Shown here: positions 33,990-52,830 of the stretch, one piece after another
How the letters are laid out: each line of letters opens with the position of its first letter
Numbering within the stretch: position 1 is the first letter of the stretch
Origin: Kordiimonadaceae bacterium
GTDB taxonomy: Bacteria; Pseudomonadota; Alphaproteobacteria; Sphingomonadales; Kordiimonadaceae
Reading direction: 5' to 3'
Assembly (NCBI GenBank): GCA_017640725.1
Contig: JAEPQB010000001.1
Span: 124,001 to 188,000 of the forward strand
DNA: 64,000 nt
The notes under the pieces: model-generated
Told to the model about the DNA's origin: nothing
Seen by the model: the letters and a program-made list of their open reading frames with translations, nothing else
Databases searched by the model: none
Position numbers and translations under genes: made by a program

Positions 33990-35198
33990 ATGAAAAAATT
34001 ACTGACTGGGCTGTCGCTTGTTGCACTGGCTGCTTGTTCGGGTGAGCCTGAACAACCACAAGACCTAGCGGCGACAGCCAATCGCATAACGGCAGAAACG
34101 ATCATCGTGGATGGCCACATTGATGTGCCTTACCGGATGAATGATGCCTGGATAAACGTTGCTGGTCCAACAGCAGACGGTGATTTCGATTATCCACGGG
34201 CTGTGTCGGGCGGACTTAACGCGCCATTTATGTCGATTTATACGCCAGCAGTTTTTGATGGCACGCCAATGGCCAAGGCCCATGCAGAGCGCATGATTGC
34301 GCTCGTGGAGCGGATGGAAACCGATGCACCGGAAAAGTTTGCGATTGCCAGAACCGTAGCTGACCTTGAAGCCGCCTTTTTCACCGGGAAAATTGCTTTG
34401 CCACTTGGCATGGAAAATGGTGCGCCAATAATGGGCGACCTCGCCAATCTCGACTACTTCTTTGAGCGCGGTATCCGCTACATCACGCTGACCCATTCTC
34501 GCGCCAACCACATTTCAGATAGTTCCTACGACGAAAACAAGGTCTGGGGCGGACTGTCAGACTTTGGGAAGCAAGTCGTCGCAAAAATGAACGACCTGGG
34601 CATTATGGTAGATGTTAGCCATATCTCCGATGAGGCATATTGGGATGTCATGGAAATCACAAAAACACCCGTGATCGCCTCTCATTCTTCCGCGCGGCAT
34701 TTCACGCCTGGATTTGAACGCAACATGAACGACGAAATGATCAAAGCGCTCGCGACAAATGGAAGCGTTATCATGATCAACTATGGCTCGTCATTCGTGA
34801 CAGAAGAAGCCAATCAATATCGGCCCAAACGAGCTGCGGCATATGAGGCCCATCTGGCTGAAAACAATATTGAAGATAGTGATGAGGTGCGCGCAGCCTT
34901 TGTTGCAGAGTATCAAAAAACAACCCCTTACCCCTATGCGACACTTGAGCAGGTGCTTGATCATTTCGACCATGTGGTAAGAATTGCGGGCATCAACCAT
35001 GTGGGGATTGGTTCGGATTATGACGGCGTTGGCGATAGCTTGCCCATTGGCTTGAAGGATGTTTCTTCATATCCAGCTCTGGCTGAAGGTTTGCTGCGTA
35101 GAGGATACTCGGAAGAAGACGTCAAAAAAGTCCTGTCAGGAAACGTCTTGCGCGTGTGGCGCACTGTAGAAGCATACGCTGCGTCACAGCAGTCCTAG
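33990..35198 (+). CDS. M19 membrane dipeptidase, lipoprotein
   Basis: A 402-residue zinc dipeptidase of the renal dipeptidase family. The signal peptide ends in lipobox LAAC, so it is lipid-anchored in the periplasm. VDGHIDVPYR carries the HxD zinc ligands, and DVSHISDEAYWDV and ASHSSARHF are the other metal and active-site segments. IGSDYDGVGD is a typical C-terminal motif. GGGGGA lies just upstream of the ATG. It cleaves dipeptides, including some with D-residues. Confidence 0.94.
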   Translation: MKKLLTGLSLVALAACSGEPEQPQDLAATANRITAETIIVDGHIDVPYRMNDAWINVAGPTADGDFDYPRAVSGGLNAPFMSIYTPAVFDGTPMAKAHAERMIALVERMETDAPEKFAIARTVADLEAAFFTGKIALPLGMENGAPIMGDLANLDYFFERGIRYITLTHSRANHISDSSYDENKVWGGLSDFGKQVVAKMNDLGIMVDVSHISDEAYWDVMEITKTPVIASHSSARHFTPGFERNMNDEMIKALATNGSVIMINYGSSFVTEEANQYRPKRAAAYEAHLAENNIEDSDEVRAAFVAEYQKTTPYPYATLEQVLDHFDHVVRIAGINHVGIGSDYDGVGDSLPIGLKDVSSYPALAEGLLRRGYSEEDVKKVLSGNVLRVWRTVEAYAASQQS

Positions 35199-36677: not shown

Positions 36678-38366
36678 TTGACAGAAGAGTGGCACAAACC
36701 CTGGCAAGTCCGATGGTTTGACGTCACTCTTGTGGTGATCCTGGTTGCCGCCGCATGCTGGCGCGCGGCCATGTCCGACGGCGGCCTTGTGCTGTCTTTA
36801 CTACACGGGCTATTGCTCGTCTTTTTGTTTGTGACACTGTCTGCTGGCGCGCGCCGACTTCACCCTCTGCCCGCATACGGATTTTTCTGTGTTGCCGCAC
36901 TATTGCTTATCGCGGAATTGGCTGTGCAGCACCTCACCGGGCTCCACGTCAATTGGTTCTTAATCAGCCTGCTTTTGCAGCCTGATGCTGATACTCAAAT
37001 CGGTTTCTCTGCTGTTTATGTAGGCGTATTTGTGTTGGCAACTATCGGTGTTCTGGCCTGGACAAGTTGGAGGACCAGGGCAAGGGTAATACGCATCCAG
37101 CCGTTGGTGGTACTAGTTTTCACGGTAGGCATATTTGTAGGGGCCCAATGGGTCTATACAGTGGCCTACTTTGATGGCGCTGCGCGCATCCTCGAAACCC
37201 GCCGCACCTTGCCCTTTTTCTGGGCTCCCCACCCCTACCGATCAAACAAGCTTTTGGGATATGTCTTTGGACCCAGAAGCGAAAACCCCTTTGCAGAGTC
37301 CGATAACGGATTGGATGAGATACAAACTGATGCAGGTGGGCGAAGTGTTCCCTCTCTGGATTTGGCGACCGCACCGAATATATTGATAATCGTTGCTGAC
37401 AGTTGGCGGGCAAAAGATTTAGCCGAAAACCCTAGCCTCGCGCCAAATTTCCTACGAGCCGGGGAAAACGGCTTTCTCTCCCTCACGCACTCTAGCGTCT
37501 CAAATTGCACTCATTTTTCAATGTATTCGCTGTTCACGGGCAAGCTCGCCACGAGTTACGGGCGCAGTCGCCGCCTGAAGGCTCCCGCCGGAATAATACC
37601 ATTATTGGATACTGCCGGTTACGACGTCAGTACCGCAGAATCTATCGCAATGGATTGGTACAATCTATCTGACATTTTGCTGCCTCATAACGCAGAGCGA
37701 GCGCTTGTTGACGGTGCAGACAACTTTGAAACCGATCAGCAGGTAACCCAGCAAACTCTTGAAAAAATTGCAGGGTGGCAGGGTTTGGACAGACCGCAAA
37801 TGCATTTGGCATTCTATCAAGGCACCCATTACCCCTATCACAGAGACCGTGCACGCCCTGGAACCACTAACCTTGCTAGATACAAGCAAGCCGTCACCAT
37901 CCTAGATAATGAGCTGGCACTGATATTTGAGGCGCTGCAGCCTTCTTCAAACATGAGAAGAACACTCGTTATCGTAACATCAGATCATGGAGAAGAATTC
38001 CTGGATGAAGGGGTCGTGGGACACGCCAGCAGGCTGACGGACGAACAAGTGACGGTACCTTTCATGGTACTTGGTAACGTGTCGTCAGCCGCGGTTCCAA
38101 ATTCGCATACCGGCGTGCATGATTTCATAATGGCTGAGTTGGGAATTCCCATAGAGACAGACCAAAATAACGCGCCAATCATTCTGACCAACTGCGACTA
38201 TGATCACCCCAATGGATTTGCGCTATTGAGCAAACAGGGTAGGTTCGAGTTTGCTTACGACGACGGATACCTAGTGCCAACAGTTGACACTCAAAGCGCG
38301 CACGAAAAACAGGAAATTTCTAAGGCCGCAAAAAAATTGCTGCAGGCGATATCCGAGGATCGCTAG
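36678..38366 (+). CDS. Sulfatase-fold membrane protein, PbgA/YejM- or LtaS-like
   Basis: A 562-residue protein started at TTG 36678, since AAGGAG lies correctly before it and no better start exists. Five hydrophobic helices fill residues about 10-165, followed by a periplasmic alkaline-phosphatase-superfamily domain. Metal ligands: the Asp in IIVADSWRAKD and the DH pair in VTSDHGEEFLD. The nucleophile region reads SVSNCTHFSMYSLFTG, with Thr rather than the C-x-P-x-R of true sulfatases. This resembles SSGNRTD-type motifs of PbgA and the Thr of LtaS-type enzymes. An envelope lipid role (sensing or phosphoglycerol/phosphoethanolamine chemistry) is inferred. Confidence 0.82.
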   Translation: MTEEWHKPWQVRWFDVTLVVILVAAACWRAAMSDGGLVLSLLHGLLLVFLFVTLSAGARRLHPLPAYGFFCVAALLLIAELAVQHLTGLHVNWFLISLLLQPDADTQIGFSAVYVGVFVLATIGVLAWTSWRTRARVIRIQPLVVLVFTVGIFVGAQWVYTVAYFDGAARILETRRTLPFFWAPHPYRSNKLLGYVFGPRSENPFAESDNGLDEIQTDAGGRSVPSLDLATAPNILIIVADSWRAKDLAENPSLAPNFLRAGENGFLSLTHSSVSNCTHFSMYSLFTGKLATSYGRSRRLKAPAGIIPLLDTAGYDVSTAESIAMDWYNLSDILLPHNAERALVDGADNFETDQQVTQQTLEKIAGWQGLDRPQMHLAFYQGTHYPYHRDRARPGTTNLARYKQAVTILDNELALIFEALQPSSNMRRTLVIVTSDHGEEFLDEGVVGHASRLTDEQVTVPFMVLGNVSSAAVPNSHTGVHDFIMAELGIPIETDQNNAPIILTNCDYDHPNGFALLSKQGRFEFAYDDGYLVPTVDTQSAHEKQEISKAAKKLLQAISEDR

Positions 38367-39004
38367 CCTTCCAAACCAGCACTTTTCAGCATCATGCTGA
38401 TCACACTTGCTTTGGCGTCTTCAAACTGGCTGTTAGAGAGCGGAGCGCCACCATTCATGACGTTGATCTGCGCTTCAAAATCAGCGTAATTTTGCGTGGT
38501 TGCCCAGACCATATACATGAAATACCGGGTATTCATGGGTTTTAGGCGCCCTTCATCAATCCATTTCTGAAGCACTTGTTCCCGGCTTGTCAGCCAAGGT
38601 TTGACCTCATTCTCGAGGTATTCTTGCAGGAACGGCGCACCTGAAGCCATTTCGATCGCCCAAAGTCGGGAGCCATTCGGACGCTCACGCGCCAAATCCA
38701 TTTTTGCCGCCACATAGCGACGGATTGCCTTTTCCGGATCATCCGAGGCGTCGAAACTGTCGGCGGCGTGCAGCCAAATCGTGCAAATATTCTCGATAAC
38801 ACGCCGGTAAAGTTCTTCTTTGTTGCCAAAGTAATAATAGACGTTGGGCTTTGGCACATTGGCGCGGTCAGCAATTAATCCGACGCTCGCTCCTTTAAAT
38901 CCCTTTTCAGCAAACACGCTTTCAGCAGCAATCATGATCTTGCTGACATTCTCGCGCCTGATAGCAGCCTTGTGGCTGGCTTCATTGTCGGCCGGGCGGT
39001 TCAT
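38363..39004 (-). CDS. TetR-family regulator resembling RutR
   Basis: A 213-residue regulator. The N-terminal helix-turn-helix (IADRANVPKPNVYYYFGNKEELY, residues about 40-62) is typical of TetR. The C-terminal ligand domain carries GSRLWAIEMASGAPFL and FMYMVWATTQNYADF. These match RutR-type segments as I recall them from E. coli (RLFCMEMLAGAPLL; FMIWASTQHYADF). RutR binds uracil or thymine and represses pyrimidine catabolism. The downstream locus (TonB receptor, deo/upp/bmp genes) contains sites like the RutR box, so this is its likely regulator. Confidence 0.85.
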   Translation of the reverse strand: MNRPADNEASHKAAIRRENVSKIMIAAESVFAEKGFKGASVGLIADRANVPKPNVYYYFGNKEELYRRVIENICTIWLHAADSFDASDDPEKAIRRYVAAKMDLARERPNGSRLWAIEMASGAPFLQEYLENEVKPWLTSREQVLQKWIDEGRLKPMNTRYFMYMVWATTQNYADFEAQINVMNGGAPLSNSQFEDAKASVISMMLKSAGLEG

Positions 39005-39166: not shown

Positions 39167-42100
39167 TTAGAACTTGTACTTAACGCCGAACTGGATGCGC
39201 CACAGCGTATCACCAGCATCAACATTTGTTGGAATTCCACCAGTCAAGTTGAAGTCGTCAAAGACAAACTGAGCACCATCAATCGACGCACCGCTTACAA
39301 TGATACCATTGTTATCTTGGTCGTAGAAACGCTGCACGCCAGCACCGCTATCAATGAAGTTGAGGAAGTTCTCAAAGTTCAGTGAAAGCTCAATGAGGTG
39401 GCCCTCAAATGGTGTTGGCACTTCTTGGCTGAAGCGAAGATCGATATCAGCATTCCAAGGCTGGTTGAGAGTTCCAGGAGGAACAATGCCGCCAGCATAT
39501 TGAGTGAGGTTGTTCTCTTCCAGGAACTGGAAGAAACCATTCACGTCAAATCCAGGTGCAAACTGAACCAGCGGATCAGTTGGGCCTGTTGGAATGTACA
39601 GCAGGCTTCTTGCCACATCATCAGAGTCACCGAAGGTATCCTGAGAGGTATCTTCATTAAACACTGCCGACAAAGGACGACCAGAACGGGCACGGAAGAA
39701 CACACCAATGGTGGACTGCAAGCCATCCCAGAACTCATCGCGGTACGTGGCATTCAGAACAATGTTGTGCTTGTTAGCAAACACTGAGTTACCAATTGGA
39801 ACATCGTTGAAGTTGTCAGTAGACACGTTCTCGAAGCTGGAACCTGCAGTAAAGTTGGTAGCAGGGTTACCTACATTCACGTCAGCAAATGCATAACCAG
39901 CTCTGAATGAAATTGTGCCCGTGTCAGTCACGTCAAAGTCTTTAGCAAACTGAGCCGAGAAAGAATACGCATCGCCGCTACCGTTAACCGCATTGGTCAA
40001 AACGATGTTCTGTGGAAGTGAAACGCCGTCGAAACAAGCTGCAGACGTGTTGCTGAACGTACGCAAGTTGTCACTAAGCGTTGCGCCACAACCAGGAGCA
40101 GACGGATCGATGTTCGCAAAGATAGGACGACCATCTGGCGCCGTACCATTTTGAGCGATACTCAGGTCAACAAAGTCAAGTGAGTTACGGTTGTTGGTGT
40201 AGATGAAGTCAAGGTTAACTTGCCAGTCATCGAAGAAACCAGAACCACCGAAATCAGTGTAGTGCTGAACGCCCAGGCTAAACCGGTCTTGGCTTGGCAA
40301 AACAAGGTCAGGATCAGTAGCCGCAACTTCAGCAGCAAACAATGAGTTCCGGAGAAGGATCTCTTGGCCGATACAAGCCGGAAGACCTTGGAACTGACCA
40401 TTTACAATAGTGTTTTGCAGGTCGGCATCTGTACAAATGTCGTTTGTACCGAACGAGTCACCCGCGTCACCCAAAGCAATCGCACCACCAAAGTTTTGGA
40501 ACGCGTTTGAGAAGAATACGGTTGGATCACCACCACCGAAGCGGCCAAAGCCGGCTGTCAGAGTTGTCTGACCAAACTGCTCAGGAAGTTCCCAAGTCAA
40601 GCCGATACGTGGCTGCCACAAATCAAGGCCGTCATAGGCGTTGTTGTTGTTGAAGCCATAACGATCAACAAATGCTGGGTTGAGGTTTGGTGCGTCGTTT
40701 GACTTGTAGAAGTCGTAACGCAAACCAGCAACAATTTGCAGGTTATCAGTAACCTGCCACTCATCCTGTGCATACAGCGAGTGGATATTTCTGGCAAAGT
40801 CTGCACCAGCGTCAAGCGGATCCAGAGTGAAAGATCCATTCTGACGGATAAGCGCAACGTTACCTGCTTCAAGGTCTTCAACGCTGTCAAAGAATACAGT
40901 ACCTGTCGCGTTGATGATGAAGAGGTTGAACACTTCCAAACGGTCAAGTTCATAACCAAATGAAATTGTGTGGTCACCGGTCACATAGTCACCAGCGACT
41001 TTGACTTGATCAACGCGCGTATCAAGTTGGTTCGCACTACGGAAAATACCGGGGCCAGATGCAAAGTCATTTCCGAAGAACTCGTTTGCGAATGACAGCG
41101 CACGGATTGCTACCCGAGTAACGTTGGTATCTTGTGCTTCACCACCAAGGGTTGGGCCCTGGTTATCCTGAACATCACTTCTTGAAAGACGAATCTCTGT
41201 GGAGAAGTTTTCCGTCCAGTCCGAGAACAAGCGGAATGAGTATGTGTCAGAGATCGAACCGCGGTCCTGGAAGTTATCGAGGAATGTTGTTTCACCGCGA
41301 CCAGTACCAATTGCATCACCCAGCAAACGGTCTTCTTCAAGGCGAGCATATGTCGCTGCCACACGATGGTTATCAGTAACGTTCCAGTCAATACGACCAA
41401 AGAAACGACGGCTGGTGTTAGGCAAAGAGCGAACCAGAGGACCAACATCGCGTCCAAAGATATTTTGGATCGCAGTAGCCGCACGATTTGCTTCGTCCAA
41501 AGTCAAACCGGATTCGTTCAAGAAGCCTGCACCAATTGGTCCTTCGTTCTGAATGCCACCAGCATCAGTTTCTTCGTATGAAGCATAGAAGAAGATTTTG
41601 TCTTCAATAATCGGACCGCCAAGCTCGGCGCCCCAGTTGTAGTTGTCAAAATCGGCGTCTACTGGAGGCTCACCCTCGATATCTGAACCGGTGAGGCTGT
41701 CGCCTGTGTAAAGGAAGAATGCTGAACCCTGGAAGTCATTCGTACCAGACTTAGTAACAATGTTGATGTTACAACCTGTGAACTGGCCATACTCCACGTC
41801 GATTGGAGAAAACTCAACCGCGGTTGAAGATACAGAATCGAATGGAATTGGGAATGTGCTACGCGCCAGGTTACCGGAAAGGTTCAAACCAAATGGGTCA
41901 CCCGCACGGGCACCATCAATTGTAAAGGCGTTTGCACGAGCGTTACCACCCAAACAAGAAATACCGAAGCCTTCACCGCCGCTGCCACGCTGTACGTTAA
42001 CACGTGGATCCAAACGGATAACGTCACGGATCTGACGGCTTACAGAAGGCAGGCTCTGAATATCTGCGAAATTGAAAGAACTACCAGGACCAACTGCAAT

Positions 42101-42502
42101 CTGCGCTGCGACAACCGAAGACGCCACAACCGTAATTTCTTCGATGCCATCATTGGCGTCTTGAAGAGCAATATTAAAGGCCGTGGTACCAGAAAGGTTG
42201 GTAAACACGTCAGTAATGAGAACATCCTCATACTGGTTAGAGTCTACGCGAATGGTGTACGGGCCACCAACAGTAAGGCCGCGTGCTGAAAATACACCGT
42301 TAGCATTTGTTGTTACCGTCCGGGTCGTTCCAGTACGAGTATCAGTGATAGTAACGCTTTCACCAACAGCTGGGTTACCAGCTGGTGTTGTGACCGTACC
42401 ACGTACCGACGACGTAATTTCCTGCGAGACGGCAGGCACGGATGCTGCCATAGCAGCAAGCGCCACACCACTACACAAAGTAGTCTTAAATAGGCGATTC
42501 AT
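39167..42502 (-). CDS. Large Oar-like TonB-dependent outer membrane receptor
   Basis: A 1111-residue receptor. A signal peptide ends near VSQE, and a carboxypeptidase-regulatory-like beta-sandwich spans about residues 28-115 (SVRGTVTTPAGNPAVG). EEITVVAS could be the TonB box. A plug with NAFTIDGARAGDPFG and FTGCNINIVTKSGTNDFQGS follows, then a long barrel ending in WRIQFGVKYKF with the expected C-terminal aromatic. Several Cys pairs lie in loops. Such receptors import large or scarce nutrients. The RutR-like box upstream and the neighbouring nucleoside genes point to nucleosides, nucleobases or nucleic-acid fragments as ligand; this is inference. Confidence 0.93.
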   Translation of the reverse strand: MNRLFKTTLCSGVALAAMAASVPAVSQEITSSVRGTVTTPAGNPAVGESVTITDTRTGTTRTVTTNANGVFSARGLTVGGPYTIRVDSNQYEDVLITDVFTNLSGTTAFNIALQDANDGIEEITVVASSVVAAQIAVGPGSSFNFADIQSLPSVSRQIRDVIRLDPRVNVQRGSGGEGFGISCLGGNARANAFTIDGARAGDPFGLNLSGNLARSTFPIPFDSVSSTAVEFSPIDVEYGQFTGCNINIVTKSGTNDFQGSAFFLYTGDSLTGSDIEGEPPVDADFDNYNWGAELGGPIIEDKIFFYASYEETDAGGIQNEGPIGAGFLNESGLTLDEANRAATAIQNIFGRDVGPLVRSLPNTSRRFFGRIDWNVTDNHRVAATYARLEEDRLLGDAIGTGRGETTFLDNFQDRGSISDTYSFRLFSDWTENFSTEIRLSRSDVQDNQGPTLGGEAQDTNVTRVAIRALSFANEFFGNDFASGPGIFRSANQLDTRVDQVKVAGDYVTGDHTISFGYELDRLEVFNLFIINATGTVFFDSVEDLEAGNVALIRQNGSFTLDPLDAGADFARNIHSLYAQDEWQVTDNLQIVAGLRYDFYKSNDAPNLNPAFVDRYGFNNNNAYDGLDLWQPRIGLTWELPEQFGQTTLTAGFGRFGGGDPTVFFSNAFQNFGGAIALGDAGDSFGTNDICTDADLQNTIVNGQFQGLPACIGQEILLRNSLFAAEVAATDPDLVLPSQDRFSLGVQHYTDFGGSGFFDDWQVNLDFIYTNNRNSLDFVDLSIAQNGTAPDGRPIFANIDPSAPGCGATLSDNLRTFSNTSAACFDGVSLPQNIVLTNAVNGSGDAYSFSAQFAKDFDVTDTGTISFRAGYAFADVNVGNPATNFTAGSSFENVSTDNFNDVPIGNSVFANKHNIVLNATYRDEFWDGLQSTIGVFFRARSGRPLSAVFNEDTSQDTFGDSDDVARSLLYIPTGPTDPLVQFAPGFDVNGFFQFLEENNLTQYAGGIVPPGTLNQPWNADIDLRFSQEVPTPFEGHLIELSLNFENFLNFIDSGAGVQRFYDQDNNGIIVSGASIDGAQFVFDDFNLTGGIPTNVDAGDTLWRIQFGVKYKF

Positions 42503-42709
42503 TCCCTAAGCTCCGTTTAAATGGTTGCAACCGGACCACAGAACATGCCGATTACCCCCCTGTTAACCCCTGTGCCGAGGTTTAGTTTCAATTTCACACA
42601 ATACCCAGCCACTACTTCACCAAATCCTAACGAAAAGGTCAAGAACGACCGGGAACCCGCTCAAACGCTTGTTTGCGGCATGGTTCTAGTATCGTTTCAT
42701 TTCAGTTTT

Positions 42710-42725
42710 TTGACGTTTGTGTCAA
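42710..42725. promoter_or_regulatory. RutR-like box upstream of the TonB receptor
   Basis: TTGACGTTTGTGTCAA, a TTGAC-N6-GTCAA palindrome followed by GAAT. It shares 13 of 16 positions with the deoC box. Read on the minus strand it begins TTGACA, which could serve as a -35 element. It lies about 210 bases upstream of the receptor start. Confidence 0.62.
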
Positions 42726-42925: not shown

Positions 42926-44143
42926 CTATTGCGCTGCAACGCCCTCACTCAATGGGGAAATTTCGAGATGTTTGGCTACTGTTTGGCCAATATCTGCAAA
43001 ACTGTCCCTGCGACCACCGCTTCCGGTCGTGAAATTTGGACCAAACGCCACAAACGGTACAAACTCTCGTGTATGGTCACTTCCTGGCCAAGTTGGGTCG
43101 CATCCGTGATCAGCGGTTAAAATTACCAAATCGTCGTCGCGCATTTGGTTGATAAATTCCGGAAGCCGGGTATCAAAATACTCTAACGCAGCGGCATAGC
43201 CTGCCACGTTGCGCCGATGGCCAAAGTTCTGATCGAAATCAACAAAATTCACGAACGTAAGCGAACCGTCTTCAGCCTCTTCCTGCATTTTCAAACTCAG
43301 ATCAAACAAGCCATCGAGACCATTTGCCTTCACCTTTTTGGTTAGGCCACTGTGGGCAAATATATCGGCGATTTTTCCCACCGAAATCACTTCGCGGCCT
43401 TCGGCCTCAAGCAGGTCAAGCAATGTCCGTTGGTGTGGTGGCGTCGCCAGATCGCGCCGGTTGCCGGTACGTTCATAGGCCCCACTTTCGCCCAAAAATG
43501 GCCTGGCAATGACGCGGCCGATATTGTAGTCGTCAACAAGCTCGCGTGCGACCTCACAAACCTCGTACAATTTATCTAGTCCAAAGTGCTCTTCATGGGC
43601 CGCGATCTGGAACACACTGTCTGCCGAGGTGTAAACAATCGGCTTGCCGGAAGCGACATGCTCATCGCCTAATTCTTCAATGATCACAGTTCCAGAGGCG
43701 GCTTTGTTGCCTAGAACACCCGGAATGCCAGTACGCTCAACCAGTTTCGAAATCAGATCGTCAGGAAAACTCGGAAACTCAGGCTGGAAATAGCCCCAGT
43801 CAAATTCAACCGGCACCCCTGCCATTTCCCAATGGCCGGAGGGCGTATCTTTTCCGAAAGAGCGCTCTGCACAAGCAGCATAAAAGCCTTTTGCAGCGCC
43901 TTCAAACTCGGTCCCTGGATGAATTTTGCCTGTCGCAAGCTCCGCTGCTTTGCCAAGCCCAAGCTCAACCATGTTTGGCAAAGAAATCGGCCCGGCAGTT
44001 GGTCTTTCAGCAGCAGTATTGCCAGATGCACACCATTCGGCAATGTGGCCGAACGTATCTGCGCCAACATCGCCAAACTTGTCGGCATCTGGCGCCGCGC
44101 CAATGCCAAAACTATCCAGAACCAATATGAATGCCCGTGCCAT
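42926..44143 (-). CDS. deoB: Phosphopentomutase
   Basis: A 405-residue alkaline-phosphatase-superfamily mutase that converts (deoxy)ribose-1-phosphate to the 5-phosphate. [32 protein letters not shown] (with the phospho-Thr) and [20 protein letters not shown] are diagnostic metal and nucleophile motifs. The GAGGG binding site lies inside the end of deoA, and only two bases separate the genes. It links the phosphorylases (DeoA, PunA) to DeoC. Confidence 0.97.
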
Positions 44144-44145
44144 GA

Positions 44146-45486
44146 CTAGCCCTCAATGATTTCGGCAACAACCGGGGTGAGTGAAACCTCAGTATCGCTC
44201 AGTTTAACTGCCGACTTAACTTCTTCAGCCGCACGCTCAGCCGTCGCAAGATCGTGCGCTTGTACCACGGCAAGCGGATCACCTACTTCAATACGATCCC
44301 CGATTTGAACAATATCTGTCAAACCAACTGCATGGTCGATTTTTGCCGATGGATCGGTTCGTCCGCCACCCATGGCAACCACAGCCATGCCAATCGCGCG
44401 TGTATCTTGTTCAGATACAAAGCCAGCGCGGTCACTGCTAACCGCAAACGTCTGCTCCGCAACTGTAACATGTTTTGAAAGAGACGATAAAATATCGTTG
44501 GGGCCGCCTTGCGCTGCCACCATTTTTTCGAAAACAACGGCTGCACTGCCATCATCCAGGCTCCTTTGGGAGGCCTGCAGCGCCTCATCCACGCTGCCAG
44601 ACACACCTGAAATGTGCAGCATGTGGGCAGCAAGCGCCAGTGTCACATCGACCAACCGACTGTCCGCAGCGCTTGGGTTTGTCAGAAACTCGACAGACTC
44701 GATAACCTCAACGGCATTTCCGGCGGTGCGGCCCAAAACCTGGTTCATGTCTGTAAGCAGCGCTCGCGTCGGGGTGCCGGCAGCGCCTGCAACTCGCACA
44801 ATATTCTCTGCGAGCTCTTTGGCCTTATCGTAATCCGCCATAAAGGCCCCGGACCCGAACTTCACATCCATGATCAATGAATTCAGACCGGCTGACAGTT
44901 TCTTCGAGAGAATTGACGCTGTAATCAGCGGAATGCTCTCAACTGTCGCGGTCACGTCACGCACAGCATAAAAACGCTTATCGGCGGGGGCAAGCTCGCC
45001 CGTTTGGCCTATGATAGAACAACCCACATCACGCACAATTTCGGCAAATCGCTCGATGCTTGGATAAGGGTCATAGCCCGGGATAGCTTCAAATTTATCG
45101 AGCGTGCCGCCCGTATGCCCCAGACCCCGCCCTGAGATCATTGGCACCAGTCCGCCGCACGCAGCAACTATGGGAGCCAGCATAAGGCTGACCTTGTCGC
45201 CCACACCACCTGTCGAGTGCTTGTCAACGATTGGTGCCTCTGCGTCAAAGCCTAGACTTGTCCAATCGATAACATCACCGCTGTCCCGCATAGAAAGCGT
45301 CAGCGCAGCGCCTTCTTGCGGGCTCATGCCATTGAAGAATACTGCCATGCCAAAAGCAGCTATCTGCGCATCCGTAACGCGGCCATCGGTAATGCCTTCA
45401 ACAAAGCGAGCAATGTCAGCTTCGCTCACCGTCTGGCCATCGCGTTTTTGCTGAATAATCGCTTGTGGAATTAAAATATCACTCAT
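44146..45486 (-). CDS. deoA: Thymidine phosphorylase
   Basis: A 446-residue enzyme of the pyrimidine nucleoside phosphorylase family. [45 protein letters not shown] and [20 protein letters not shown] are the phosphate- and pyrimidine-binding signatures. It splits thymidine or deoxyuridine to base plus deoxyribose-1-phosphate. Its start overlaps the cdd stop (TAATG), so translation is coupled. Whether uridine is also used cannot be judged; no separate uridine phosphorylase gene is in the window. Confidence 0.96.
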
Positions 45487-45932
45487 TACTTTTCTCTCTT
45501 GCCGTGACGGACTGCGTTCACAACGTCGGGTCCAAATGAATTCGGCAACAAGGTGAAAATAGATGTTTCCATCAAGACGCCACCATCTGAGTCACACAAA
45601 TAAATCTCGATGTCGTCGGCGCCCGCAAATTCGCGCAGATTTTGCCTGCAGCCACCGCATGGGGCACACAAATCCTGATTAGGCCCAGATACAACAGCTG
45701 CAACAATCTGCCGACCACCCGCCATTGCCATGCTGCCGATTGCATTTGCTTCGGCGCACATGCCGAGTGGGTAAGCCGCATTCTCAACATTACAGCCGGC
45801 GTAAATAGCACCATCGTCCGCCAACACAGCTGCGCCCACAGCATAGCCCGAATAGGGTGAGTATGAATTCGCCCGGGCGTCAATAGCGGCTTCAATCAAC
45901 GCCTTTTTGGTGGATTCATCGATCTTTTTCAT
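45486..45932 (-). CDS. cdd: Cytidine deaminase
   Basis: A 148-residue homotetramer-type deaminase that converts cytidine and deoxycytidine to uridine and deoxyuridine. SYSPYSGYAVGAAVLADDG, CAEANAIG (zinc Cys plus catalytic Glu) and PCGGCRQNL (two zinc Cys) are intact. ATG 45932 is chosen. It overlaps the end of the upstream permease gene by 17 bases, so no separate ribosome binding site is visible and coupling is likely. Confidence 0.96.
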   Translation of the reverse strand: MKKIDESTKKALIEAAIDARANSYSPYSGYAVGAAVLADDGAIYAGCNVENAAYPLGMCAEANAIGSMAMAGGRQIVAAVVSGPNQDLCAPCGGCRQNLREFAGADDIEIYLCDSDGGVLMETSIFTLLPNSFGPDVVNAVRHGKREK

Positions 45933-46887
45933 AGGGAATACCACTCGCTTTAGGCGCTTCCATCTTGCCAACAAAACCAGCCAAGATAATGACGGTCAGG
46001 ACGTACGGCAGCATGATGGTGAACTGCACCGGAATTTCGCCAATCAACGGCAAGCTAACGCCTTGCAAGCGCCCCTGCAGCGCATCAACAAACGCAAACA
46101 GCAAACAGGCCAGCAATGTCGGAACCGGCTTCCATTTGCCGAAAATCATTGCCGCCAGAGCAAGAAACCCCTTACCTGCAGACATGTCACGGATGAAACC
46201 CGCACCAAGCGCCGTGGAGAGAGCACTGCCCGAAATTCCACAAAGAATCCCCGCAATAATCATCGCCTGATAGCGCAACAGGGTTACAGAAATGCCGGCT
46301 GTATCTACGGCTTCGGGGTTTTCACCCACAGCGCGCAGTCGCAGACCAAAACGCGTTTTATAGAGAACCCACGCCACAACAGGCACCGCAGCGAAGGCGA
46401 CATAGGTCAGCAAATTATGGCCGGATATCAGATCACTGTAGATTGCTCCCAAAAACGGTACGTCCTGCAGCACATCGGCAAATGGCAGCGTGATCTCCGT
46501 GAACCGCATGGAGCTATCAAGAAACGGCGTCTGCCCGCCACGCGAAAACCATGCAATAGCCAGCAATGGTGCCAGGCCGGCAACCATAATGTTGATCGCC
46601 ATACCAGACACGATTTGGTTGCCGCGCTGATTGATCGACACATAGCCATGCAGCAACGCGAGCGCCACAGAGAACAAAATACCTGCCGCCAGCCCCGCCC
46701 ATGCAGACGCGGTAATGGCTGCGGCACTGGCTGCCGCAAACGCGGCGCCAAGCATCTTGCCCTCAAGGCCAATGTCAACAATACCGGCACGCTCAGCGCA
46801 CAAACCAGCAAGCGCGGCCAATATGAGCGGTGCTGCAATGCGCAGCGTCGAATCAGTTAACAGAACAATGTCGGTAAGAAACTCCAT
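45916..46887 (-). CDS. Nucleoside ABC importer permease (second subunit)
   Basis: A 323-residue permease of the BMP-type (YufQ/NupQ-like) nucleoside importers with about eight to nine helices. The N-terminal DIVLLTDSTLRIAAPLILAALAGL and the central AVGENPEAVDTAGISV loop are characteristic and contact the ATPase. Its start meets the stop of the first permease, and its end overlaps cdd. The whole run bmp-ATPase-permease-permease-cdd-deoA-deoB is one operon. Confidence 0.93.
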   Translation of the reverse strand: MEFLTDIVLLTDSTLRIAAPLILAALAGLCAERAGIVDIGLEGKMLGAAFAAASAAAITASAWAGLAAGILFSVALALLHGYVSINQRGNQIVSGMAINIMVAGLAPLLAIAWFSRGGQTPFLDSSMRFTEITLPFADVLQDVPFLGAIYSDLISGHNLLTYVAFAAVPVVAWVLYKTRFGLRLRAVGENPEAVDTAGISVTLLRYQAMIIAGILCGISGSALSTALGAGFIRDMSAGKGFLALAAMIFGKWKPVPTLLACLLFAFVDALQGRLQGVSLPLIGEIPVQFTIMLPYVLTVIILAGFVGKMEAPKASGIPYEKDR

Positions 46888-47996
46888 CAGGCAGCTCCTT
46901 TACCGATAAGCCGAGCGTATGCGGCCGTAACCGGTTTGCGCATCAGATGCGGCATGGCCCCTGCGAAGATAATGACAAGCCCCTGCACAACAACGATCAT
47001 GTCGCTGGAGATGGTGGTAATTTCGAAAGCGATTTCCGCACCACCTTGATAAAGCACACCAAACAAGATGGCTGCCAACACTATGCCCAGAGGGTGATTG
47101 CGCCCCATGAAAGCGACTGCAATGCCAACAAAACCATAGCCAAGCGTGAAGTTGCCGATCAGCCGAAGCTGCTCACCCAGCAGTTCGTTGAGACCCATCA
47201 TGCCCGCAAGCGCGCCTGACATCATTAAGGCGATGATGGTCACGCGAGGCACCGAAACCCCGGCGAAAGCGGCCGCATTTTGGTTCTTGCCTGCCACGCG
47301 CATTTCATAACCAAAGCGCGTGCGCGTCAGCAGAAACCAAACAGCAAGTGCCATCAGAAGAGCAATGAGGAAGGAGACATTCAATGGGCTCTGTTCAAAG
47401 CTGAAACCAAGTACACTCATCAGCTCATCAAACTTCATAAGGCCCGCGCCTTCTGGGAAATCACTGCTTTCAGGCATCTGTCCACCGGGCCGCTGCAGGG
47501 GCCCAACCAGCAGGTAAGCCAACAATGCAGACGCGATGAAATTAAACATGATGGTGGTAATCACGATATGACTACCCCGCGTCGCCTGCAGCCAAGCAGG
47601 AATAAAGGCCCACGCGCCGCCAAACAGTGCCGCCCCGAGGATTGCGATAATGACCGACAATACGGGTGCTGTATCGCCAAGCCAGAATACGGCAAGTGTT
47701 AAACCAAGACCACCAAGCATCGCCTGACCCTCACCGCCAATATTGAAATGGCCGGCATGATATGCGACCGAAACGGCAAGACCGGTGAAGATGAAGTTGG
47801 TGGCATAATAGAAGGTATAGCCAATGCCTTCTTGGTAGCCGAAGGCGCCATCAAACAAGAGACTCAGGGCATAAAAAGGGTCTTCACCCAGTGCCCAAAT
47901 CAACAGACCTGACAGCAAGAACGCAATCAAGGTGTTCAAGAACGGCATTGCAATGGCTTCGACCGCGCCTGGTAATTTTTTGGCCGACGCACTCAT
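46887..47996 (-). CDS. Nucleoside ABC importer permease (first subunit)
   Basis: A 369-residue permease of the YufP/NupP-like type with about ten helices. YHAGHFNIGGEGQAMLGGLG and MRVAGKNQNAAAFAGVSVPR are the conserved cytoplasmic loops that dock with the ATPase. It overlaps the ATPase gene by four bases. Together with the second permease it should form the inner-membrane channel for nucleosides. Confidence 0.94.
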   Translation of the reverse strand: MSASAKKLPGAVEAIAMPFLNTLIAFLLSGLLIWALGEDPFYALSLLFDGAFGYQEGIGYTFYYATNFIFTGLAVSVAYHAGHFNIGGEGQAMLGGLGLTLAVFWLGDTAPVLSVIIAILGAALFGGAWAFIPAWLQATRGSHIVITTIMFNFIASALLAYLLVGPLQRPGGQMPESSDFPEGAGLMKFDELMSVLGFSFEQSPLNVSFLIALLMALAVWFLLTRTRFGYEMRVAGKNQNAAAFAGVSVPRVTIIALMMSGALAGMMGLNELLGEQLRLIGNFTLGYGFVGIAVAFMGRNHPLGIVLAAILFGVLYQGGAEIAFEITTISSDMIVVVQGLVIIFAGAMPHLMRKPVTAAYARLIGKGAA

Positions 47997-49552
47997 AGTC
48001 CAGCCCCCTCAGTAGTCGCTTCTGCATGAGCACCCGCCATCATCAGCCCAATAGTGCGCTCGTCCGCGTCCTGAATATCAACGGTCCCAGTAATTTCGCC
48101 CTCGCACATAACGATGATGCGATCGCTGATTGCCATAAGCTCATCAAGGTCAGCCGACACCACAAGAACCGCTTTGCCGGTATTCCTGAGTTCCGTGATC
48201 TGATCATGAATTTTGGTAACAGCGCCAATATCGACGCCTCGCGTTGGCTGGCCAATAATCAGTGTTTGCGGGTCCCGCGCAAGCTCACGTGCAATCACCA
48301 ATTTTTGCTGGTTACCGCCCGAAAATGATGCAACAGCAAGCGAAGGGTCACGCGGACGCACATCTTGGCTCTCAAAATAACTGTGTGCGGCATCGTTGAT
48401 TGCGGACAGTTTCAATAACCCGTTTTCACTGAAGTCTGGCTCGCGCTGATAACCGAGAATTGAGTTTTCCGTTGCGCTCATATCGGCAACAACACCTGTT
48501 TTCAAGCGGTCCTCGGCAATATGGGCAAGCCCAGCACGCCGCAACTCAATGGGATCGGTCATCGCCTCATTTGAATTTACCAATTCCTGGCCAAGCGTAA
48601 CTGTGCCATCCGACACAGGCCGCAAACCCGTCAACACATCTAGAAGCTCTGTTTGACCATTGCCTGCAACGCCAGCGACCCCAAGCACCTCACCATCAAA
48701 CAGTTCAAAAGAGATGTTCTTTAAGGCCGTGTGCCCCAGATCAGATTGCGCAGACACACCGTCGACTCTAAGGCGAGGGGCGCCATGCTCCTGTCCGGCG
48801 CGCTCTACTGCCCTCGAAATCTTGGCCCCCACCATCGCTTCGGCAAGGTTTTCTGGTGACGTATCACTCGTTGCAACCCGTGTGATCACTTTGCCAGCAC
48901 GAATGACTGTAACAGCATCTGTTATGGCCATGATTTCATGCAGCTTGTGCGTGACGAACAGAATGGTTTTGCCACGGCTTTTCAGCAGGCGCACCAGTTC
49001 AAAAAGCTGATCGCATTCCTGTGGTGTCAAAACAGCAGTAGGCTCATCAAGAATAAGAATATCAGCGCCGCGAAATAGCGCTTTCAGGATCTCCACTCTT
49101 TGCCGTTCACCAACGGACAATTGGCTGACTGGCGTGTCCAGCGGAAGGTCAAATCCGAATTGCTGCTCTAGCCCAAGAAGCTTGGCGCGCGCATCAGTTT
49201 TTGCGTGATCCAACATGCCCTGCCCTTCGGCGCCGAGGATGATATTCTCCAAAACCGTAAATGGTTCCACCAGCATGAAGTGCTGGTGGACCATCGCGAT
49301 ACCAGCGGCCATCGCGTCAGATGGGCTATCTAGGTCAAGCTTTTGACCGTTGACGATAAGGTCGCCGCTGTTGGGTTGATAGAAACCAAACAGCATTTTC
49401 AGCAGCGTCGACTTGCCAGCACCGTTTTCCCCTACAATGCCGTGGACAGTGCCCTGTTCCACGAACAGCGAGATATTGTCGTTGGCTTGCACAGCCCCAA
49501 AGCGCTTGCACAAATCCTTGGTTTCAATGGCAGGGGCTGTTGTCATCAACAT
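47993..49552 (-). CDS. Nucleoside ABC importer ATPase (two nucleotide-binding domains)
   Basis: A 519-residue tandem ATPase. The first domain has GENGAGKSTLLKML (Walker A) and LSVGERQRVEILKAL (signature). The second has a degenerate Walker A, GVAGNGQTELLDVL, and FSGGNQQKLVIAREL. The same asymmetry is normal for this family (YufO/NupO, RbsA-like). ATG at 49552 or 49546 is possible. It energises the two permeases encoded just downstream. Confidence 0.95.
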   Translation of the reverse strand: MLMTTAPAIETKDLCKRFGAVQANDNISLFVEQGTVHGIVGENGAGKSTLLKMLFGFYQPNSGDLIVNGQKLDLDSPSDAMAAGIAMVHQHFMLVEPFTVLENIILGAEGQGMLDHAKTDARAKLLGLEQQFGFDLPLDTPVSQLSVGERQRVEILKALFRGADILILDEPTAVLTPQECDQLFELVRLLKSRGKTILFVTHKLHEIMAITDAVTVIRAGKVITRVATSDTSPENLAEAMVGAKISRAVERAGQEHGAPRLRVDGVSAQSDLGHTALKNISFELFDGEVLGVAGVAGNGQTELLDVLTGLRPVSDGTVTLGQELVNSNEAMTDPIELRRAGLAHIAEDRLKTGVVADMSATENSILGYQREPDFSENGLLKLSAINDAAHSYFESQDVRPRDPSLAVASFSGGNQQKLVIARELARDPQTLIIGQPTRGVDIGAVTKIHDQITELRNTGKAVLVVSADLDELMAISDRIIVMCEGEITGTVDIQDADERTIGLMMAGAHAEATTEGAGL

Positions 49553-49579: not shown

Positions 49580-50581
49580 CTAGTGACCGTCATTGCCGCC
49601 GTCGACGTCAGCAACGACAATTTCACCGGAAACGATTTTGGCACGCGCCGCTTCAATCTGTGTCCGCATCTCTTCACTGATCAGCGCGGCATTATGCTCG
49701 TCCATCGCATAGTCAACGCCGCCCTCAGGCAGACCCAGCACCTGATGTCCCGGTGCCCAGGTGCCACCATGTGCGGATAGCATGGCTTGCTGGACCGCAA
49801 GGTCCACTCGCTTGAGCATGCTTGTCAGCACAAAGCCTGGCTGAACGTGGTTTTGGTTACTGTCCACGCCGATGGCCAGGGCCCCGTTATCTTTCGCGGC
49901 ATTGATCACACCGAGACCCGACGGGCCGGCTGCAGAAAAAATAATGTCGACGCCCCGCGCATATTGGGACTTCGCCATTTCCGCAGCTTTAATGGGATCA
50001 TTCCAGGCAGACGGCGTTGTGCCCACATAGTTCTCGATGAACTCCAGGTCACCGCGCACATAATTGGCACCTTGCTCGTAACCTACCTGGAAGCGACGAA
50101 TAAGCGGAATATCCATGCCACCAATGAAGCCGATCTTTCCGCTTTCTGAAGCCAATCCCGCTATCATGCCAACAAGAAAAGAACCTTCATTTTCTTTGAA
50201 AGTGACCGATTGCACATTCGGCAAATCAATCACGGCATCGATCACCGTGAACTTTACGTTCGGGAACTGTTCCGCAACATTGCGGACGGCCACCGAGTAA
50301 CCAACGCCAACAGCAACAATCAAATCAGCGCGCCGACGCGCGAATCGCTTCAAGGCCTGTTCATATTGTGTTTCGCTATTCGGTTCAAAGTCCCTGAACT
50401 CAATCCCGGTTTCACGGGCAAATTGTTCGGCACCCCGAAAAGCTGCCTCGTTAAAAGACTTGTCGAATTTTCCGCCGATGTCATAGAGCAATACAGGTCG
50501 GAAGTTCTGTGCCGATGCAAAGGACGCAGGAAGTATCACGAGTGCGGCAAAGGCCAGCATTCTGAAGAATGAAAATTTCAC
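49580..50581 (-). CDS. BMP-family nucleoside-binding protein of an ABC importer
   Basis: Started at GTG 50581 behind GGGAG, giving a 333-residue protein with a signal peptide (cleavage near ASAQ). The longer frame upstream is dismissed. LYDIGGKFDKSFNEAAFRGAEQFA, VGVGYSVAVRNVAEQFPNVKF and VDSNQNHVQPGFVLTSMLKRVD are the Med/PnrA-type signatures; this family binds purine and other nucleosides in the periplasm. It heads the minus-strand importer and salvage operon and is divergent from upp, with a RutR-like box between. Confidence 0.94.
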   Translation of the reverse strand: MKFSFFRMLAFAALVILPASFASAQNFRPVLLYDIGGKFDKSFNEAAFRGAEQFARETGIEFRDFEPNSETQYEQALKRFARRRADLIVAVGVGYSVAVRNVAEQFPNVKFTVIDAVIDLPNVQSVTFKENEGSFLVGMIAGLASESGKIGFIGGMDIPLIRRFQVGYEQGANYVRGDLEFIENYVGTTPSAWNDPIKAAEMAKSQYARGVDIIFSAAGPSGLGVINAAKDNGALAIGVDSNQNHVQPGFVLTSMLKRVDLAVQQAMLSAHGGTWAPGHQVLGLPEGGVDYAMDEHNAALISEEMRTQIEAARAKIVSGEIVVADVDGGNDGH

Positions 50582-50685
50582 GAAATTTTGCTCCCTATTG
50601 GCGGAAAAATGCCTATGCTCCTTTATGCATCGAACTGCAAGGCGGGCGCAAGGGAACCAGAGCAATTACAGCAGGTCAACCATTT

Positions 50686-50701: not shown

Positions 50702-50782
50702 GATTAGGTCGACAGCTTATGCGAAACTGGGTAAGCAGGGCGCGCTCCCACTTTGATTGGATGCTTCTGGAGGGGAAACTTT

Positions 50783-51421
50783 ATGACGTCACTGGTTACT
50801 GTTGTTGATCACCCTTTGGTGCAGCACAAGCTCACACTGTTGAGACGCAAGGAAGCGAGCACCGCTGAATTCCGCACTTTGCTGCGGGAAATTGGGCTTT
50901 TCCTAGGATACGAGGCACTTAGGGATCTTCCCCTTGGCAAGGTTCAAATCGAGACACCGGTTTGCCCGGCCGAAGCGCCTGTATTGTCCGGTAAAAAGCT
51001 CACCTTTATTTCCGTGCTGCGTGCAGGCGACGGCCTTTTGGGCCCTATGCTTGAGCTGGTACCATCTGCGCGTGTGGGTCAAATTGGCCTGGCGCGAGAC
51101 GAGGAAACGCTTCAGCCCACCAAATATTTCTTCAAAGTGCCAAAAGATATATCGAATCGCCTGAACGTGGTGTTGGACCCAATGTTGGCGACTGGCCATT
51201 CAGCCGTGCGCGCGGTTCAGGAAATGAAAGATGCCGGCGCCACTGACGTGCGCTTCGTATGTTTGCTGGCGGCGCCCGAGGGCATGGAGACATTTACCAA
51301 AGCGCATCCCGATGTGCCTGTGTACACGGCGTCCATCGACGATCACTTAAACGACAAAGGCTATATCGTGCCCGGTCTTGGCGACGCGGGTGACCGGCTA
51401 TTTGGAACCAAGGGGGTTTAG
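50783..51421 (+). CDS. upp: Uracil phosphoribosyltransferase
   Basis: A 212-residue salvage enzyme that converts uracil and PRPP to UMP. ATG 50783 follows GGAGGGG, and the N-terminus [21 protein letters not shown] is standard. [13 protein letters not shown] is the PRPP loop, and [16 protein letters not shown] the uracil-binding end. It starts a plus-strand operon with the next phosphoribosyltransferase and PunA. It would recapture uracil released inside the cell, for example from deoxyuridine by DeoA. Confidence 0.97.
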
Positions 51422-51426
51422 GGTCC

Positions 51427-51981
51427 ATGAGTGTAGAAAAGAAATACGTAACGGCTCAAGAACTGTTGACAGACTCGTTTGAACTGGGCTTGCAGATTTT
51501 AAAAAGCGGCTTTCGGCCAAAGTTTATTGTGGGTGTATGGCGTGGCGGCACTCCAACTGGTATCGCTGTGCAGGAAATCCTGGATTATTACGGCGTAGAC
51601 ACCGACCACATTGCGATCCGAACGTCGAGTTACATCGGCATGCAACAGCAGAAAGAAGTGAAAGTTCACGGGCTGGAGTATATTGTTAACAACATCAACG
51701 CAGAAGACAGCCTGCTTATTGTTGACGATGTATTTGACAGCGGTCGCTCTATCGCGGCCACTGTCGAGCACCTCAAGGCTAAGTGCCGCAGGAACACGCC
51801 GGACGTGATCAAAATAGCAACGGTATTCTTCAAACCGGCCCGCAACGTGACCAACCTGAAACCAGACTTCTACTGTCACGAAACCGATGATTGGCTTGTG
51901 TTCCCGCATGAGCTCTCGGACATGACTAAAGAAGAGATCAAAGCCCACAAGGGGCTCGATCTGCCTGAAATCGAAATCTAG
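51427..51981 (+). CDS. Purine-type phosphoribosyltransferase
   Basis: A 184-residue type I phosphoribosyltransferase. LLIVDDVFDSGRSI is the PRPP loop, and VGVWRGGTPTGIAVQEIL an early substrate loop. The protein resembles the hypoxanthine/xanthine-guanine group (Gpt-like) rather than orotate or adenine enzymes. It starts five bases after upp and precedes PunA, which would supply hypoxanthine and guanine, supporting a purine-base salvage role. The exact base specificity is not clear. Confidence 0.85.
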   Translation: MSVEKKYVTAQELLTDSFELGLQILKSGFRPKFIVGVWRGGTPTGIAVQEILDYYGVDTDHIAIRTSSYIGMQQQKEVKVHGLEYIVNNINAEDSLLIVDDVFDSGRSIAATVEHLKAKCRRNTPDVIKIATVFFKPARNVTNLKPDFYCHETDDWLVFPHELSDMTKEEIKAHKGLDLPEIEI

Positions 51982-52008
51982 CCATCAAACCATTTAGGAG
52001 ACCAAGTC

Positions 52009-52830
52009 ATGAGCTTTGAAGACGTGCAAAACTGCGCCAGTTTCATCCGTGAACGTTTCACTGGCGAGATGCCGAAAATGGCGCTCGTGCTGGGCAGTGG
52101 TCTCAACAGTATGGCCGACGCGATCGACGATCCGACCGTATTCTCATTCCTCGATTTGCCCGGGTTCCCGGAGCCGACGGTAGAGGGTCATGCCGGGCGC
52201 ATGCTCATCGGCAAACTGGAAGGCAAGCCTGTGATTTGCATGCAGGGTCGCGCGCACGCTTACGAAGGTCACCCCGCCGAAAAGCTGGCTTTCTCAACGC
52301 GGGTACTGTGGGCTTTGGGTGTTGAAATTCTTGTTCTCACAAACGCGGCAGGAAGCCTCAATGAAAAAGCCGGACCTGGTAGTTTGATGGCGATCACAGA
52401 TCACATCAATTTCTCGGGCATCAATCCACTCGTGGGTGTCAATGATGACCGATTTGGTCCGCGCTTTTCTGACATGACGGCGGCTTGGGACAAAGACCTG
52501 ACAGCCAACCTGAAACAGTGCGCGGGTCAACTTGATATCCACCTTCATGAAGGCGTTTACCTCATGGCCAAAGGCCCGAACTTCGAAACGCCAGCTGAAA
52601 TCCACGCCTTTCGCATGATGGGCGCAAACGCTGTTGGCATGTCGACTGTGCCGGAATGCCTTGTGGCGCGACATGTGGGCATGCGGGTGTGCGGTGTGAG
52701 CTCCATTACCAACCTGGCCGCTGGCATGACCGGCGACGCGCTGACACACGATGAAACAATGGAATTTGGAGCAATTGCAGCCGTAAACCTTGAGAAGCTG
52801 TTACGCGCCTTCATTGAGAAAGTAGCCTAA
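52009..52830 (+). CDS. punA: Purine nucleoside phosphorylase
   Basis: A 273-residue trimer-type enzyme that splits inosine and guanosine (and deoxy forms) to base plus pentose-1-phosphate. MALVLGSGLNSMA, GHAGRMLIGKLEGKPVICMQGR and GPNFETPAEIHAFRMMGANAVGMS are the phosphate and purine pocket motifs, with the catalytic Asn in the SSITNLAAG segment. AGGAG precedes the ATG. It fits with the exported adenosine deaminase at 59524, which would turn adenosine into inosine before uptake. Confidence 0.95.
   Translation: MSFEDVQNCASFIRERFTGEMPKMALVLGSGLNSMADAIDDPTVFSFLDLPGFPEPTVEGHAGRMLIGKLEGKPVICMQGRAHAYEGHPAEKLAFSTRVLWALGVEILVLTNAAGSLNEKAGPGSLMAITDHINFSGINPLVGVNDDRFGPRFSDMTAAWDKDLTANLKQCAGQLDIHLHEGVYLMAKGPNFETPAEIHAFRMMGANAVGMSTVPECLVARHVGMRVCGVSSITNLAAGMTGDALTHDETMEFGAIAAVNLEKLLRAFIEKVA

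Follow-up and report, generated by a model that had tools for sequence, protein, structure and literature searches.

Box conservation and gene neighbourhood suggest a nucleic-acid-derived cargo for an Oar-type TonB-dependent receptor

The DNA considered here (the window) comprises 64,000 nucleotides of a Kordiimonadaceae bacterium (assembly GCA_017640725.1, contig JAEPQB010000001.1, positions 124,001 to 188,000) and carries the gene of an Oar-type TonB-dependent receptor, R1, with a RutR-type palindromic box in its upstream region. A first-pass annotation had placed this gene between a RutR-like regulator gene and a deo operon and had proposed R1 as a possible outer-membrane receptor for nucleosides or nucleic acids. 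The flanking genes are confirmed by open reading frame (ORF) positions and profile scores, and the proposed function gains support from the conservation of the box, its co-occurrence with the regulator and the neighbourhoods of related receptors. From these sequence comparisons it appears probable that R1 handles a nucleic-acid-derived cargo and that it does so under RutR-like control. The features of the locus are as follows, with boxes given without strand.

38363-39004, minus strand: RutR-like TetR-family regulator, 213 amino acids; PF08362 (YcdC/RutR C-terminal), 151.7 bits
39113-39142, minus strand: terminator-like hairpin with T run 3' of the R1 gene, read by eye
39167-42502, minus strand: R1, Oar-type TonB-dependent receptor, 1111 amino acids, assigned from Pfam profiles and AlphaFold2 fold
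42627-42642: box 2, degenerate in the window (2 mismatches), 140 base pairs (bp) upstream of R1
42710-42725: box 1, RutR-type palindrome TTGACGTTTGTGTCAA, exact match, 223 bp upstream of the R1 start
42926-44143, minus strand: deoB, phosphopentomutase; TIGR01696, 508 bits (cut-off 341)
44146-45486, minus strand: deoA, thymidine phosphorylase; TIGR02643, 622 bits (cut-off 571)
45486-45974, minus strand: cdd, cytidine deaminase; TIGR01354, 135 bits (cut-off 114)
45916-46887 and 46887-47996, minus strand: two ATP-binding cassette (ABC) permeases, nucleoside-type by context, the first outside the profile scan
47993-49552, minus strand: ABC ATPase, of a nucleoside-type ABC transporter by context
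49580-50665, minus strand: bmpA, PnrA-like substrate-binding protein; PF02608, 213 bits
50686-50701: box TTGACATTTTGGTCAA, exact, between bmpA and the divergent upp
50753-52830, plus strand: upp, a phosphoribosyltransferase-domain gene and a purine nucleoside phosphorylase-family gene, divergent from bmpA
54404-56809, minus strand: aldehyde dehydrogenase, behind deoC and downstream of the 57822 box
56819-57775, minus strand: deoC, downstream of the 57822 box
57822-57837: box TTGACCTTTTGGTCAA, exact, upstream of deoC and aldehyde dehydrogenase

Box 1, described earlier as RutR-like, is indeed an exact TTGAC-N6-GTCAA palindrome. The label RutR-type refers to the operator consensus of Escherichia coli RutR, whose letters were not found in the paper checked. 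Conservation of the box upstream of orthologues, which had been named as a check, holds within the genus (Kordiimonas or close to it): each of the 24 receptors examined there carries a box with no more than one mismatch within 400 bp, exact in 20 of the 24, and the reversed control occurs in 0/24. By hand count, 14 of the 19 genus receptors at deo loci have two such boxes, one near -220 and the other near -140, with a spacing of 79-83 bp. Among the other five, box 2 of the window has its two mismatches, the pair of L062 is 107 bp apart, L055 has the second box only, L058 the first box only, and L061 lacks the second box (L and G numbers are our handles for loci and genomes). Box 2 is exact or has one mismatch in 16 of the 19, again by hand count, and in the upstream alignment of the genus both boxes form conserved islands within diverged DNA. 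Across 19 genus genomes, AT-centred boxes number 60 sites versus 13 for the reversed control, and a palindrome one base shorter gives 6 sites versus 10. As side observations, a CTGAAA stretch directly 3' of box 1 is conserved together with it in the upstream alignment, and the spacing of the boxes is held near 82 bp, which corresponds to about eight helical turns.

The regulator gene is the single PF08362 gene found in the whole genome. Its equivalog scores lie far under the cut-offs (TIGR03613, 173 versus 368 bits; NF011584, 142.8 versus 230 bits), and it is therefore named RutR-like rather than RutR. PMC10891134 names the residues with which E. coli RutR contacts uracil, together with two lysines, K52 and K62, in the DNA-binding part of that protein. 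All five uracil contacts, W77, Y97, W167, Q171 and Q179 (partner subunit), are invariant in the regulator alignment, and the two DNA-contact lysines are likewise present. As uracil impairs DNA binding by RutR (PMC10891134) and the uracil pocket is conserved, the regulator of the window may be released by a pyrimidine base in the same way.

The receptor box follows the regulator gene across genomes. In the 42 genomes with the receptor and enough upstream sequence (G040, with 52 bp upstream only, was excluded), and with weak PF08362 matches of 20-25 bits (G030, G037, G041) scored as regulator absent, a box with at most one mismatch, a threshold fixed after a first look at the boxes, is present upstream of the receptor in 26 of the 30 regulator-bearing genomes and in 0 of the 12 without the regulator (Fisher 1.6e-7). 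Counted per genus, the figures are 7/10 and 0/10 (Fisher 0.003). Exact boxes were found in 18/30 versus 0/12 genomes, and the reversed-control box upstream of the receptor in 0/42.

Further box sites were read in 20 regions around AT-centred sites, plus some within receptor loci. Of the distinct loci in which 98 bp or more can be read upstream of bmpA, all five have a box there, the cdd/upp gap carries one in one of two loci, and the deoC box occurs at the same place in five further genus genomes. A PreT/PreA-like (dihydropyrimidine-dehydrogenase-like) gene pair is preceded by a box in two relatives (L276, L284), and the homologue in this genome by one with one mismatch; the name of the pair is based on Pfam Fer4_20 and on a downstream ferredoxin-domain gene of dihydroorotate-dehydrogenase type, no NCBIfam cut-off being passed. 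A class III aminotransferase gene has a box in one relative. Together, these genes are consistent with a pyrimidine regulon. At L277 the site falls within the gene preceding purF. Boxes within the tdk coding sequence (L275, L285, L292) were set aside as intragenic, and the contig-end sites L282 and L283 of G003 are probably one site counted twice.

Some regulator different from the RutR-like protein could be the one that uses the box, which would concern regulation only and not the cargo; we regard this as improbable. Two exact boxes 25 bp apart stand before a TetR-like gene, so named by eye, at G000:C9:2268-2308 (L012, L013), and they are possibly the operators of that adjoining regulator itself. 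Since these boxes (C9:2268/2293) have the same core but precede a different TetR-like gene, the core is not confined to a single regulator. The counts of 26/30 against 0/12 for the PF08362 gene speak against such an assignment at R1, as do the boxes at pyrimidine genes and the presence of a single PF08362 gene in this genome.

R1 itself starts with a signal peptide (by eye), followed by a CarboxypepD_reg domain at residues 32-114 (PF13620, 54.5 bits versus a cut-off of 32.3), the N-terminal extension seen in the Oar subclass, and then by plug and barrel. PF25183 matches with 136.4 bits (cut-off 30), and the Pfam Plug (21.1 bits) and barrel (23.1 bits) matches are both under their own cut-offs. 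A TonB-box-like EEITVVAS, picked by eye, begins at residue 121, and E121, E122 and I123 are kept in at least 90% of 41 aligned receptors. In its AlphaFold2 model (predicted local distance difference test 84.4, predicted template modelling score 0.82), R1 is a plug-closed barrel of the TonB-receptor fold. The top matches of a fold search against the PDB are all TonB receptors (PirA, Z 35.2; Cir, Z 34.7; BtuB, Z 34.2), and a protein-sequence search of the PDB gave no match at E 0.01. These fold matches indicate a TonB receptor in general and are silent on its ligand. R1 is strongly acidic (net charge -77), with control receptors acidic to the same degree, and net charge does not separate the receptor set from these controls. 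A promoter scan upstream of R1 returned 0 sigma-70-like sites (shuffles, mean 0.6).

Upstream of R1 and on the same strand, bmpA, the ABC ATPase, the two permeases, cdd, deoA and deoB form an operon. In each of 18 same-genus relatives one receptor adjoins deoB, and the order RutR-like regulator, receptor, deoB, deoA, cdd, permeases is found in 15 of the 18 loci, the remaining three (L055, L059, L095) being broken by contig ends. More distant relatives were surveyed among named genomes, in the best 80 of 576 confirmed stretches, which gave 79 loci, 76 of them outside Kordiimonadales going by their record titles; at least 12 of 16 kilobases (kb) of flank are present in 60 of the 76. Within 8 kb of the receptor, a nucleoside gene is present in 24/76 loci, a nucleoside or nuclease/nucleotidase-type gene in 32/76, PpnN in 20/76, and any of these markers in 52/76. 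Control PF25183 receptors have a tallied marker within 8 kb in 0/19 cases. The Fisher values for relatives versus controls (0.0026, 1.6e-4 and 9e-7) must be taken with caution, as they flatter the case because the NupC, uridine kinase, EEP, 5'-nucleotidase and PpnN queries were chosen after the neighbourhoods had been inspected. When the window genes and the S1/P1 query were used on 13 non-Kordiimonas genomes, a hand count gave 6/13 marked loci (L140, L141, L142, L148, L156, L166) versus 0/18 controls. The first-pass annotation would have been contradicted by orthologues consistently found beside unrelated genes without the box, which is not the picture obtained from 24/24 boxed receptors in the genus and 52/76 marked distant loci versus 0/19.

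The controls are 19 other ORFs above the PF25183 cut-off in 14 genomes (drawn from nine), with sub-cut-off matches excluded; in five cases the control stretch measures less than 19 kb. Not counted in the tally are a PhoD-like match at control L243 and an aldehyde dehydrogenase match each at L240 and L252. A FastTree phylogeny unites the receptor set in a single group and places 12 of the 13 controls outside it; L243 falls inside the group, which leaves 18 clean controls. The tree left out L066, L095 and L096 (cut) and L126, L127, L133 and L151 (repeats of relatives), no receptor match was obtained for controls L236, L238, L247, L248 and L252, and the rows of L068, L145 and L241 were too short.

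The linkage to nucleoside, nuclease or PpnN genes recurs across Alpha-, Beta- and Gammaproteobacteria in differing gene arrangements, and the families of ten representative neighbour genes were confirmed by Pfam. Receptor, cdd and deoA stand with tdk, upp and deoC in Colwellia (L156), Thalassotalea and Thalassomonas; NupC and uridine kinase genes are found near the receptor in Paraglaciecola, Alishewanella and a sphingomonad, an S1/P1 nuclease gene in Pseudoalteromonas and Parashewanella, bmpA with its ABC transporter in Rubrivivax and Aquabacterium, and PpnN downstream of the receptor in Lysobacter, Stenotrophomonas, Rhodanobacter and others. The ppnN gene (nucleotide nucleosidase) stands 3' of the receptor, mostly a few hundred bases off, in the gammaproteobacterial loci L170, L173-L176, L180, L181, L184-L191, L193, L196, L198, L200 and L201 (20/76). 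In Pseudoalteromonas (L144, L154, L163, L165, L167) a tandem pair of family receptors adjoins the S1/P1 nuclease gene. At L068 (G042:C83), a receptor gene with internal stops, apparently decayed, lies next to a deoA-cdd-ABC cluster.

This recurrence bears on the alternative that R1 is an Oar-like receptor for some other cargo, be it a peptide or a protein exported as in the Myxococcus Oar/PopC system, and that it came to lie beside the deo genes by chance or hitch-hiking. One Oar with a tested role does export a protease (PMC6434023, PMC11658791), and a membrane dipeptidase gene (33990-35198) and a major facilitator superfamily (MFS) gene on the far side of the regulator are retained in many relatives. 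The scanned neighbours of R1 are deo/nup genes, the regulator, and sulfatase-family, MFS and dipeptidase genes; exbB/exbD, which stand beside Myxococcus xanthus Oar, are not among them, although a neighbour scan is no test of export itself. Against another cargo stand the nucleoside linkage in three proteobacterial classes with varied gene arrangements, its occurrence in 0/19 controls, and the box of a second receptor, R2, which lies away from the searched nucleoside markers. We hold a cargo of this other kind to be very unlikely.

R2 is a second receptor of the R1 family in this genome (G000:C9:83453-85756) with an exact box at 85920-85935 (L046, L014). It is located between a metallo-beta-lactamase-fold gene and sfsA/map-like genes, named by eye, and none of the searched nucleoside markers is near. 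Its subclade comprises 8 receptors, and a hand count gives 7 with a box that is exact or has one mismatch. In G012 and G016 (L288, L293) a different TonB receptor of 738 amino acids occupies the place of R2 at the sfsA-map-like genes, with a box in the gap.

What R1 would take up may depend on where the nuclease of these loci acts. Each of the 18 same-genus relatives has an S1/P1 nuclease (PF02265) match in its locus, in 16 of them observed between deoB and the receptor, with scores of 186 and 207 bits in two genus loci and 209 in L141 (cut-off 29.5). The genome of the window has no PF02265 match, and the S1/P1 member has presumably been lost from this organism. Some genus members also have a PhoD-like phosphatase gene (97 bits) between deoB and the receptor; this genome has two PhoD-family genes, both outside the R1 locus, and beyond the genus a PhoD-like gene adjoins the receptor in L048, L050, L068, L073, L079, L081 and L082. 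If the nuclease acted outside the cell, the receptor would take nucleosides or nucleotides, whereas a periplasmic nuclease would require oligonucleotides to pass through the receptor.

R1 might thus import short oligonucleotides or single-stranded nucleic acid, with S1/P1 and PhoD-like enzymes acting in the periplasm behind it. Such a cargo is favoured because the N-termini of the S1/P1 proteins resemble plain Sec signals (by eye), which would keep them periplasmic unless exported further. Consistent with it are also the S1/P1 gene adjoining the receptor in the genus as well as in Pseudoalteromonas and Parashewanella, and the size of R1, whose 1111 amino acids exceed all 50 chains listed in the fold search (576-871 amino acids). 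The net charge of R1 argues against it, though the controls are equally acidic, and small cargo is favoured because NupC (L131) or NupC and uridine kinase (L132, L138) neighbour the receptor with no nuclease found among the queries used, and because this genome has no S1/P1 nuclease. Taken together, import of oligonucleotides by R1 seems rather unlikely, and the same doubt applies to the broader proposal that a widespread Oar-type clade forms an entry for oligonucleotides or single-stranded nucleic acid, with periplasmic S1/P1 and PhoD/EEP-type phosphatases, pyrimidine-base control and independence of the competence machinery. For nucleosides and/or nucleotides as the cargo, considered separately, we see about even chances.

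In the mechanism we favour, R1 would be a TonB-dependent outer-membrane importer of nucleic-acid-derived nutrients, most likely nucleosides and/or nucleotides, which would deliver its substrate to the periplasm, from where BmpA and the ABC transporter would carry it inward and Cdd, DeoA, DeoB and DeoC, going by their family assignments, would degrade it. The RutR-like repressor would bind the boxes that precede R1, bmpA/upp, deoC and the dihydropyrimidine-dehydrogenase-like genes, and uracil or thymine freed from salvaged nucleosides would bind the regulator and lift the repression. In other members of the genus, the S1/P1 nuclease with its export signal (by eye) and sometimes the PhoD-like phosphatase would supply the remaining steps that lead from nucleic acid to nucleoside.

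Several observations weigh against this interpretation. Across the whole genome the loose box pattern yields 11 sites versus 12 for the reversed control and is thus not enriched, so that a single box upstream of R1 proves little alone; it is the conservation across relatives that raises this box above chance. Three of the 11 sites (42710, 50686, 57822) lie within the window, all intergenic, and another lies upstream of R2. The centre of box 1 is less typical in the window: it departs from the AT-rich consensus, and the site is absent from the AT-centred set. Box 2 is degenerate there. Counted per genus, exact boxes (1/10 versus 0/10) do not differ significantly between genera with and without the regulator, and the neighbours read at sites L274/L289, L278, L279, L281 and L290 have no clear pyrimidine link. 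In G021 and G028, which are without the regulator, the receptor still adjoins deoB, and the regulation is therefore not universal. Among the distant loci, 24/76 are markerless, and 13/76 are marked if the markers are restricted to the window's own genes. Finally, nucleosides are small enough for ordinary porins, so their uptake by a TonB receptor would call for an explanation, for example few porins or scarce substrate.

Three genes near the locus deserve separate mention. The aldehyde dehydrogenase (801 amino acids) has two profile-matching stretches and hence seems doubled or fused. Directly after the nucleoside phosphorylase gene, 52899-53807 encodes a metallo-beta-lactamase-fold hydrolase with a signal-like N-terminus, whose closest solved structures are PNGM-1 and, more distantly, RNase Z; a relative (27% identical) adjoins R2, and an exported phosphodiesterase or nuclease is possible. 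The ORF at 57846-59453 (535 amino acids, membrane-protein-like, no Pfam match) is also carried by genus relatives upstream of deoC and its box, and is a possible base or nucleoside permease.

To our knowledge, Oar-type TonB receptors are mostly without known cargo. Regulon and recurring neighbourhood give the R1 clade one testable ligand class, namely nucleosides, nucleotides or oligonucleotides, and if the assignment is true, nucleic-acid compounds join the cargo of TonB transport. Aquatic bacteria feed on dissolved DNA and nucleosides, and an outer-membrane entry for these compounds bears on the recycling of phosphorus, nitrogen and carbon. Searches among Creative Commons papers in PMC, judged by abstracts and excerpts, gave no report of a nucleoside TonB receptor, and a 2024 review of TonB transporters mentions nucleosides solely in connection with Tsx (PMC11658791).

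Compared with known systems, the regulator shares with E. coli RutR the TetR subfamily PF08362, the uracil- and DNA-contact residues, a putative 16-bp palindromic operator and predicted pyrimidine-catabolic targets. Whereas the E. coli regulon comprises rutA-G and carAB, no rut operon is among the genes adjoining the regulator here, and its targets are predicted to be nup/deo, PreT/PreA-like and TonB receptor genes. M. xanthus Oar has the PF13620 N-terminal extension, plug and barrel in common with R1, whose TonB-box-like stretch may correspond to the TonB box of Oar (PMC6434023), but Oar exports the protease PopC and adjoins exbB1/exbD1 (PMC11658791), while R1 sits in a nucleoside locus. Tsx, the nucleoside channel of E. 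coli, has the role proposed for R1, passage of nucleosides across the outer membrane, but unlike R1 it does not belong to the TonB-dependent class, being a porin specific for nucleosides (PMC11658791). RutR regulons have been described in 68 genomes with 743 target genes (PMC5343134), and a TonB receptor in the RutR regulon may already be predicted in RegPrecise, though the passages of that article considered here name none. It is in the HutC, HypR and NagR regulons treated there that the ligand class of TonB receptors has likewise been predicted from regulon membership by comparative genomics, with histidine, hydroxyproline/proline and N-acetylglucosamine as the respective ligands (PMC5343134).

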